A DNA stretch of 64,000 nt from Rhodospirillales bacterium. Its GTDB lineage: Bacteria > Pseudomonadota > Alphaproteobacteria > Acetobacterales > Acetobacteraceae. Positions 15,045 through 18,022 of this stretch are shown piece after piece (position 1 is the stretch's first letter; the number at the start of each line of letters is the position of its first letter). Below the pieces are notes generated by a model that saw only the letters and a list, made by a program, of their open reading frames with translations, had not been told where the DNA came from and searched no databases. The stretch spans positions 1-64,000 of the forward strand of contig JAGWQN010000004.1 of assembly GCA_028869995.1 (NCBI GenBank), given 5' to 3'. Both the position numbers and the translations under genes were made by a program.

Positions 15045-15515
15045 TCAGCCGCCGCTTTCGCCGCCCCCCTCGCCACCTTCGCCTCCGCCATTGACGTTGT
15101 GGCAACGGTTGCAGGCCGCTGCTTTGCGAATGCCGGGGCCGGTCCCGATGCCGGGCTCGAGCAGGCGGGCATGGATCACGCGCCAGAAGGGCATGTCGGT
15201 GATGCGGTGCGGTGTCATCGTCGGCGGCAGGCCGCGCAGGAACTCACTGTTGCCGAGCGGCCCGTCGGCTGCATTCTCCGCCAGGAAGGTTGCGATCGTC
15301 GCCGTGTCGCGGCGCCCGAGTGTCGCGTCCTCGCCGAAATGATGCTGCAACCCGGCGATGACCACCTTCCAGGAACGCGCCGGCAGCAGCGTGGGCGGAT
15401 AGGCCATGTGACAGGCGCCGCACTGCGTCGCATAGACCTGGGCGGGCGTGGCCGCCTGGGCGGAGCCAGCCGCGAGCAGCGCCGCGGCGAGCAGAATATT
15501 CCGAAAACGTATCAT
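15045..15515 (-). CDS. Diheme cytochrome c (DHC type)
   Basis: 156 residues. Signal peptide of about 21 residues (MIRFRNILLAAALLAAGSAQA), then two haem c sites: CGACH (Cys32, Cys35, His36) and CNRCH (Cys135, Cys138, His139). It ends in a Gly/Glu-rich tail. Periplasmic electron carrier resembling the DHC protein found beside sphaeroides haem protein (SHP). Its ATG overlaps the stop of the SHP gene by 4 nt (ATGA). The pattern HHFGEDATLG is shared with the C-terminal domain of the cytochrome b fusion two genes upstream, so the two diheme domains are paralogous. Confidence 0.87.
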   Translation of the reverse strand: MIRFRNILLAAALLAAGSAQAATPAQVYATQCGACHMAYPPTLLPARSWKVVIAGLQHHFGEDATLGRRDTATIATFLAENAADGPLGNSEFLRGLPPTMTPHRITDMPFWRVIHARLLEPGIGTGPGIRKAAACNRCHNVNGGGEGGEGGGESGG

Positions 15516-15952
15516 TGGCTGGCCATGAAGGTGATATAGTTCCCTTTTTCCTGCGCCGTGCAGGCGCGGCGATAGACGCTCTGGCAGTTGCGCCGGAACC
15601 AAAGCTCTACCTTGGACAACTTGGTGAAGCGCGAGGGGGTGCGAGAGACCGCCATCGGCAGGATGATCTTGCCCGCGCGCGTGCGCCCCTGATTGCGCGG
15701 ATCGGTCGTATGGCAATAGGAGCAGGAGGGCGTCGCCGGCCGGGCATTGACGGGGTGGGCGAGGAAGAAGGCGCGCCCGGCGGCGGCCGAGAATCCCTTG
15801 AAGTTCGGATCCGCCTTGCGGGCCTCGGCCGCGTAGTGCGAGAGGATCGCCGCGCGCGCCGCGGCGAAGTCGGGTGTGGCCGCAGCCGCGGCACCCCCGG
15901 CCAGCAAGCCCGCAAGCATCCAGGCTGCGGCGAGACGGATGGGCAGCTTCAT
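15512..15952 (-). CDS. SHP-like monohaem cytochrome c (DUF1924)
   Basis: 146 residues with a signal peptide of about 25 residues. One haem c site CSYCH (Cys77, Cys80, His81). Downstream WFRRNC places Asn122 where SHP has its labile sixth haem ligand, and Cys123 with Cys131 matches the cysteine pair near that ligand. SHP from Rhodobacter is a high-spin, oxygen- and NO-reactive cytochrome; the same kind of activity is inferred here. Middle gene of an operon of cytochrome b-DHC fusion, SHP and DHC, each pair overlapping by 4 nt. Confidence 0.85.
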   Translation of the reverse strand: MKLPIRLAAAWMLAGLLAGGAAAAATPDFAAARAAILSHYAAEARKADPNFKGFSAAAGRAFFLAHPVNARPATPSCSYCHTTDPRNQGRTRAGKIILPMAVSRTPSRFTKLSKVELWFRRNCQSVYRRACTAQEKGNYITFMASQ

Positions 15953-17109
15953 TCGACGGACTCCGGCATCTCGATGTTTTCGGGAAGGAAACGACCGCTT
16001 TGCGCATCGTGGTGGCAGGCGTCGCAATTGCTGCGGCCGCCCACCTGCTTGCTGGCGAAGACACGCCCGGGAATACCGCGGTGCATGAAGCGCCAGAAGC
16101 GGGTTGCCGTGATCCGCATCGGATCGGCGGGATCGCGCCGCATCATCATATGCGAGACCAGCGTGTCCGCGTGCTCGGCGGAATGGGCCAGCAGATAGCT
16201 CAGGATGCGCTGATGCAATTGAGGGTCGCCGAGGCTTGCATCTTCGCCGAAATGGTGGCGCAGATCGCCCATCAGCCGTTGCCATACCGCTGCCGGAGCC
16301 AGAACCGGGCTATAGGGTGTGTGGCAGGAACCGCATTGTTCCGCATAGGTGTGATCGAGGGTCGCAGGCGGCAAACCCGGCGCTGGCGCCGCTGAAGCGC
16401 GCAGCACCAGGAGCGTCAGCACAGCAACGCTGCCGATGCCGCTGGCCGCGGCAAGCCACGGCTTCGCGCGGCCCGGAGGCGGCGGTGGCGCCGGCGGGTC
16501 CGCGGGCTTGCGCCCGTGGATCATGGCGGCGACGAGATTCTCGTGCCCGCGGCGGCTCTCGAACCACACTCCCCAGAGATGCGCCACGACCATCGCGACC
16601 AGCAGCCATGCCAGAGGCTGGTGCAACCCGTAGACGAGCCAGCCGGCATTAAAGCCGATAAAGCTACGAAACGGTCCCTGGCGGAACATGCCGGCCAGGG
16701 CCGCGGTGCCCGTCAGCACGATCAGCAGCAGCACGGCCATGATCGAATAGACCATCAGCGCGCCGGCCGGGTTATGCCCGACATGGCGCTCGTGGGCTCG
16801 GCTGCGGATGTTTCGCAGATGATGCAGGGCGGCCCGCGCGGACGGCGGAAAACTGTCGAAGCGCGCATAGCCCGGCCCGAACAGGCCGACCCCGACGCGC
16901 AGCAGGATCAGCACCGGGATCGCGATGCCGGCGGCGAGATGCAGGCTGAGCGCGCTCATGCCGCCGAAAAATCCGGTCGCGGCCGCGACGGCGACGCTCA
17001 GAACCAGCGCCCAGTGAAAGGCTCGCACGCTCCACGGCCAGGCCCGTACGCTGGGGCCGCGCGGCATCGGCGCGATGCGAGCGAGCAGAATGCGAAGCCG
17101 GGCCGTCAT
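15949..17109 (-). CDS. Cytochrome b561-type membrane protein fused to a diheme cytochrome c domain
   Basis: 386 residues from ATG 17109. Residues about 25-185 form a four-helix b-type cytochrome with candidate haem histidines (FHW at 31-33, LHL, GLHQP, AHLWG). A proline-rich linker (PPAPPPPPG) and one more membrane segment (about 217-238) follow. The C-terminal periplasmic domain has CGSCH (Cys259-His263) and CDACH (Cys362-His366). It would pass electrons from the quinone pool to SHP. In other organisms cytochrome b and DHC are usually separate genes; here a DHC domain is fused and a separate DHC is also kept. A GTG at 17178 preceded by GGAG is an alternative start, adding 23 residues. Confidence 0.82.
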   Translation of the reverse strand: MTARLRILLARIAPMPRGPSVRAWPWSVRAFHWALVLSVAVAAATGFFGGMSALSLHLAAGIAIPVLILLRVGVGLFGPGYARFDSFPPSARAALHHLRNIRSRAHERHVGHNPAGALMVYSIMAVLLLIVLTGTAALAGMFRQGPFRSFIGFNAGWLVYGLHQPLAWLLVAMVVAHLWGVWFESRRGHENLVAAMIHGRKPADPPAPPPPPGRAKPWLAAASGIGSVAVLTLLVLRASAAPAPGLPPATLDHTYAEQCGSCHTPYSPVLAPAAVWQRLMGDLRHHFGEDASLGDPQLHQRILSYLLAHSAEHADTLVSHMMMRRDPADPMRITATRFWRFMHRGIPGRVFASKQVGGRSNCDACHHDAQSGRFLPENIEMPESVE

Positions 17110-17278
17110 GCGGCATGTGCGGGCCGATGTCTCGGGCCCTGACGCTTGTGTTCCCGGCGCTTTACGTTCGTCCGACACGAGGCTCCGTTTGCCGCACCCG
17201 GGCGACGCTATCGGGGGTGCCTGTCCGAGGGCTTACGGTCCCGGCTGCCGTGGCAGCCGGGACCCGGGGAGGCTGGCT

Positions 17279-18022
17279 TCAGCCGTTGAGCTGCCCACCA
17301 TCGACGGTGATGGTCTGGCCTGTGACCCAGCGCGCCATCGGCGAGGCGAGGAACAAGACGACGTCCGCCACATCCTCCGGCCGGCCGAGTTCGCCGGACG
17401 GGATCCGGCTGCGCACGTTTTCGTAGAGCGGGTCCCCGGCGAGCTTGCGTTTTTCCCAGCTTCCGCCGGGAAACTCGATCGATCCGGGGGCGACCGCGTT
17501 CACCCGGATTCCCTGCTTGGCAAGCATCGCCGACTGGGTCGCCGTGTAATGATTGACCGCTGCCTTGATCGCCCCGTAGGGCGGGTTGCGCACGCTCACC
17601 CGATACGCCGATATCGAGGAGACGGACACGACCGCCGCGTCCTTGGCTTTCGCGAGGTAGGGCAGGGCGGCGTGCGTCGCGTGCACGATCGCCATCAGAT
17701 CGACCGCCACGCACGCGGCCCAGCCTGCGGCGTCGTCCGTCGTGCCGAAGCCCGAGGCGTTGTTGACCAGGATGTCGATGCCACCCAGCGCTTCCGCCGC
17801 CGCGGCGATATAGGCGCGGATCGAGGCTTCCTGCGCGAGGTCGCAGGTGGCGGCATGGGCCTTGGGGCCCAGTTCCTGCCGGGTTGCCTCCAACGGCCCC
17901 GTGCCGCGTGCGCAGATCGAGACGGCTGCCCCCGCATGGGCGAAGCCGAGCGCGATCGAGCGTCCGATGCCGCGGCTGCCGCCGCAGACGACGACACGCC
18001 TGCCGGTAAACTCAAGACCCAT
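17279..18022 (-). CDS. Short-chain dehydrogenase/reductase
   Basis: 247 residues. Cofactor site CGGSRGIG (about 13-20), NNASG, and Tyr149/Lys153 (YGAIK) with nearby serines; C-terminal DGGQLNG. The insert FPGGSWEKRK and the ending PMARWVTGQTITVDGG are seen in many uncharacterised SDRs near acyl-CoA genes. Substrate unknown. ATG 18022 chosen; a TTG two codons upstream has the better-spaced GGAAGGA and could be the real start. Confidence 0.85.
   Translation of the reverse strand: MGLEFTGRRVVVCGGSRGIGRSIALGFAHAGAAVSICARGTGPLEATRQELGPKAHAATCDLAQEASIRAYIAAAAEALGGIDILVNNASGFGTTDDAAGWAACVAVDLMAIVHATHAALPYLAKAKDAAVVSVSSISAYRVSVRNPPYGAIKAAVNHYTATQSAMLAKQGIRVNAVAPGSIEFPGGSWEKRKLAGDPLYENVRSRIPSGELGRPEDVADVVLFLASPMARWVTGQTITVDGGQLNG

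Follow-up and report, generated by a model that had tools for sequence, protein, structure and literature searches.

The stretch of DNA analysed here (the window) comprises 64,000 nucleotides of an Acetobacteraceae genome and carries a three-gene operon that is a new example of the SHP operon type already published for Rhodobacter sphaeroides. SHP (sphaeroides heme protein), a small cytochrome that binds oxygen and nitric oxide, was discovered in that organism, where the operon encodes a CytB/mDHC chimera, SHP, and a soluble DHC, in that order and without adjacent regulatory genes (Meyer, Kyndt & Cusanovich 2010, PMC2909971). Judged from sequence, the operon in the window fits the Rb. sphaeroides type on every point that can be examined in this way. 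An operon type published for Rhodobacteraceae now includes a group of Acetobacteraceae as well, and the comparison shows that the fusion of cytochrome b to a diheme domain is the normal form in alphaproteobacteria.

Operon layout and genomic context

The three genes are located on the minus strand and are read from position 17109 to 15045 in the order CytB/mDHC, SHP, and sDHC (Table 1). All three genes had been predicted to overlap by 4 nt; the 4-nt ATGA overlaps are present but there are two such junctions, not three. The 5' start of the CytB/mDHC gene is uncertain: the ATG at 17109 is used here, but translation could also begin at 17178, where a GTG lies in frame. The source genome, a 2.88-Mb assembly that is 77% complete, contains one SHP and two DHC domains, and both DHC domains are encoded in the operon.

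The neighbouring genes encode an ILVD/EDD-type dehydratase, two SDRs, a small ORF without a Pfam match, RecQ, and an ABC ATPase, and no sensor kinase or response regulator was found among them. The ABC transporter ATPase (PF00005; 20305-22050, minus strand) lies upstream of the operon beyond RecQ and may be one half of a CydC/CydD-type exporter. A perfect inverted repeat that occurs once in the window directly follows the upstream SDR gene and precedes the operon. It is possible that this repeat is a transcription terminator or boundary, in which case the operon would have its own promoter in the region ~17110-17236. No sigma-70-like promoter was found at the operon, and the two terminator-like matches are near chance level (mean 1.1). 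A scan with an FNR-type consensus, allowing up to two mismatches, gave no match in 17110-17281 and nine matches window-wide where 5.0 were expected.

Table 1. Features of the SHP operon and its upstream boundary (positions in the window).
Feature	Positions	Strand	Details
CytB/mDHC chimera	15952..17109	-	386 aa/codons; stop codon 15949-15951; ORF read and Pfam
SHP (PF09086/DUF1924)	15512..15952	-	146 aa; signal-like N-terminus; ORF read and Pfam
sDHC, secreted diheme cytochrome c	15045..15515	-	156 aa; ORF read and Pfam
ATGA stop/start overlap, CytB/mDHC-SHP, 4 nt	15949..15952	-	sequence
ATGA stop/start overlap, SHP-sDHC, 4 nt	15512..15515	-	sequence
Inverted repeat, perfect, 13-base, folds as 12-bp stem	17237..17264	-	very stable fold, z -3.5; no T run

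The encoded proteins

The first gene encodes a protein in which a Ni_hydr_CYTB/b561 domain (PF01292, residues 24-199, 3.3e-19) is followed by a DHC domain (PF09626, residues 255-374, 2.7e-31) that contains the haem motifs CGSCH259 and CDACH362, in line with the original prediction of a b-type protein that carries a diheme domain at its C-terminus. Five His residues (32, 57, 112, 163, and 177) in the cytochrome b portion are shared by 28/28 fused homologues, and these candidate ligands are enough for two b haems. A hydrophobic segment at ~217-246 precedes the diheme domain, which we infer to be periplasmic. The fused domain matches solved DHCs, and the closest solved protein is the diheme cytochrome 3u99.

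SHP matches the DUF1924 profile over its full length (PF09086, 9.9e-32, residues 50-143) and has a single CXXCH motif (CSYCH77). Its best solved relative is 1dw0 (4.4e-23), which we take to be the Rb. sphaeroides SHP, and it is also related by sequence to cytochrome c'' of Methylophilus methylotrophus (1e8e, 7.8e-13). The predicted signature of Asn122, Cys123, and Cys131 is found with all three residues in place, the cysteines forming a Cys-x7-Cys arrangement directly after the Asn, and Trp118 lies four residues before Asn122. By homology, Asn122 is the predicted sixth haem ligand of SHP. Trp118 and Asn122 correspond to W84 and N88, two residues for which a correlation is reported in PMC2909971.

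The last gene of the operon encodes the separate secreted DHC that had been predicted, with a DHC domain (PF09626, 1.5e-27) and two CXXCH motifs, CGACH32 and CNRCH135. Its best solved relatives are 2fw5 and 2fwt (2e-24), presumably the Rb. sphaeroides DHC. The tail of sDHC (15045-15110, minus strand), which is rich in glycine and glutamate, follows the second haem motif and extends beyond the part that aligns to the solved DHCs. The E-values obtained with Pfam and solved structures exclude chance similarity for all three proteins, and NCBIfam gave no match above its cut-off for CytB/mDHC, SHP, or sDHC.

Distribution of the fusion

SHP was found in 17/200 genomes of the family and 12/385 of the class, both samples having been drawn evenly from larger groups, and in 86/398 genomes of the phylum, from which 60 regions, mostly the better-scoring ones, were taken for comparison. 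The fusion is present in 4/4 genomes of the genus, each of which carries the same three-gene block and two DHC domains. Among alphaproteobacterial clusters with a clear SHP, 20/25 have the fusion; this count leaves out the weak matches G187, G068, G314, and G452 (E ~3e-4 to 5e-4), in which no SHP operon was seen, and takes as unfused both L034, whose CytB cannot be judged because the locus stops at the contig edge, and L031, where ~2.8 kb separate SHP from the cytochrome b that was counted, which may lie outside the operon. Elsewhere in the phylum the fusion is present in 8/59 clusters.

The fusion was also found in 71 of the best 80 SHP loci nearest to the window in a collection of named genomes, which overlap partly with the samples of 200 and 385 genomes. 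The search patterns favour Asn (one of the two contains RNC), so that this set describes near relatives and not the frequency of the ligand. The named relatives include Acetobacteraceae, Rhodospirillales, Rhodobacteraceae, and Hyphomicrobiales. An 'Acetobacteraceae bacterium' MAG and proteobacterial MAGs come nearest, which suggests Acetobacteraceae as the family of the window. In a plasmid collection, distant homologues of SHP turned up in 13 records, with 41.8% to 51.3% identity among the first seven rows, and there was no close relative.

The original prediction had regarded separate cytochrome b and DHC genes as the usual form of SHP operons. This describes the clusters outside Alphaproteobacteria well, in agreement with PMC2909971, but not those within the class. 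It had further called the wiring in the window unusual, a view that does not survive the comparison, as the same wiring is that of the published Rb. sphaeroides operon (PMC2909971) and prevails in the genus, in the class, and among the nearest loci. In related genomes the fusion is essentially the standard form, with a few clusters of the Asp type as exceptions, and this is an outcome that the original prediction had named as refuting it.

Origin of the two DHC domains

The two DHC domains in the window are 34% identical to each other. A tree was built from 111 DHC domains; it has few columns for its rows, leaves out the Campylobacterota chimeras, and does not place Rb. sphaeroides by name. 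In this tree the fused domains (28/28) fall into a single clade (99/90) that contains none of the sDHCs, and the sDHC in the window groups with the sDHCs of the family. Forcing the fused and soluble domains of the genus together was rejected in an AU test (p-AU 0.0013), and the rejection was weaker when the 24 domains of the family were forced together (p-AU 0.027). In the CytB tree the fusion needs two changes: it may have been gained twice, or gained once and lost once. Several members of one family (f197) have a very divergent cytochrome b in this tree (branch length 3.6), and in two genomes of the same family (loci L131 and L135) two cytochrome-b-like ORFs lie side by side upstream of SHP.

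It is most likely that the duplication of DHC and the fusion are old and predate the diversification of the class. Whether the two domains are a recent duplication had been posed as a check on the original prediction, and the low identity, the single fused clade, and the AU test for the genus all point to an old split. A recent tandem event, in which this lineage copied its sDHC onto the cytochrome b gene, would agree with the adjacency of the two domains and their shared PF09626 assignment, but the same evidence, together with the weaker rejection for the family, makes it very improbable, and at the level of the genus it is rejected. The survey likewise refutes the proposal that the fusion with a retained DHC is an unusual, lineage-specific rewiring. 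The fusion is indeed a minority form outside Alphaproteobacteria; against this, the arrangement had already been described for Rb. sphaeroides (PMC2909971), it predominates in the class and among the nearest loci, and it is old by phylogeny.

Haem ligand and operon architecture

The type of ligand follows the architecture of the cluster. Asn is present in 19 of the 20 fused alphaproteobacterial clusters and Thr in one, while the five clusters not counted as fused (L031, L033, L034, L048, and L055, with L034 truncated where its contig stops) all have Asp. PMC2909971 describes Asp and the lack of mDHC in two Rhodospirillaceae, from which a different function was inferred, and the present cluster survey is an extension of that pattern. 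The association of fusion with Asn (and one Thr), and of its absence with Asp, may point to two separate enzyme systems in alphaproteobacteria with different chemistry.

The Thr variant belongs to a sibling in the same genus, G198, whose SHP (L044, 5992-6426, minus strand; also L156 from the collection of named genomes) has Thr (ACT) where the window has Asn (AAC), although as G198 is a draft assembly the codon may be an error. This SHP, the only one with Thr among the clear SHPs surveyed, retains the Trp, both Cys residues, and the full fused operon. Thr at this position would be surprising if SHP could not do without Asn. Together with the link between ligand and fusion, this natural variant provides concrete material for asking what purpose is served by an Asn ligand and by a DHC fused to cytochrome b.

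With regard to history, we suggest tentatively, and at slightly less than an even chance, that within Pseudomonadota the chimera has a single origin, earlier than the radiation of the alphaproteobacteria, and has been coupled ever since to SHPs with an Asn ligand. This reading departs from the suggestion in PMC2909971 that the chimera had more than one origin, which leans on Campylobacterota, a group absent from the present sample.

Proposed function

We consider it very probable that this is an SHP operon of the Rb. sphaeroides type that supplies electrons from quinol to an O2/NO-binding SHP. The membrane cytochrome b, with two predicted b haems, would be reduced by quinol, and electrons would then pass to the tethered periplasmic diheme domain and the soluble DHC and from there to SHP. 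Once reduced, SHP would let go of its Asn122 ligand and bind O2 or NO, and the protein is probably a periplasmic NO dioxygenase or other small-molecule oxygenase. The direction of electron flow, the ligand switching, and the substrate are carried over from work on Rb. sphaeroides, in which DHC is reported to reduce SHP (PMC2909971). The electron route set out in the original prediction, from quinol through cytochrome b and the fused DHC to SHP, is plausible.

A literature search, which left subscription papers mostly outside its reach, returned only one directly useful paper on the operon beyond PMC2909971. That study reports strong induction on pyrite for the SHP-cluster genes of A. vinosum (Alvin_0020-0025, one of which is a DUF1924 gene; PMC11267869), an observation that fits a metal/redox role at least as well as one in NO or O2 chemistry. 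It is conceivable, if rather unlikely, that the same electron module serves in a response to metal, sulphide, or redox conditions and not in NO/O2 chemistry; the electrons of SHP or sDHC may then have another destination, possibly the quinone pool. The genes beside the operon, which have no NO-related function, also favour such a role. It is opposed by the conservation of the Asn ligand, the Trp, and the disulfide cysteines that accompany O2 binding, and by the NO dioxygenase activity of Rb. sphaeroides SHP that is cited in PMC2909971. The sequence of the window is compatible with both roles, and supply of electrons to an O2/NO-binding SHP is the reading that we prefer.

Comparison with known systems

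The statements on published systems in this section follow PMC2909971. The closest known system is the Rb. sphaeroides operon, which is like the operon in the window in its genes, their order, the chimera, the Asn ligand, the adjacent disulfide cysteines, and the absence of a regulator. The two differ in that the operon in the window comes from Acetobacteraceae and not Rhodobacteraceae, has diverged sequences, and encodes an sDHC with a glycine-rich tail. The clusters of Rhodospirillum rubrum and R. centenum also provide CytB, SHP, and DHC functions, but unlike the operon in the window they have no mDHC, use an Asp ligand, and are adjacent to sensor kinase genes; in R. rubrum, CytB is moreover fused to SHP. 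M. methylotrophus cytochrome c'' is further removed from the SHP in the window, as it has His as its sixth ligand and a DHC is not reported for it.
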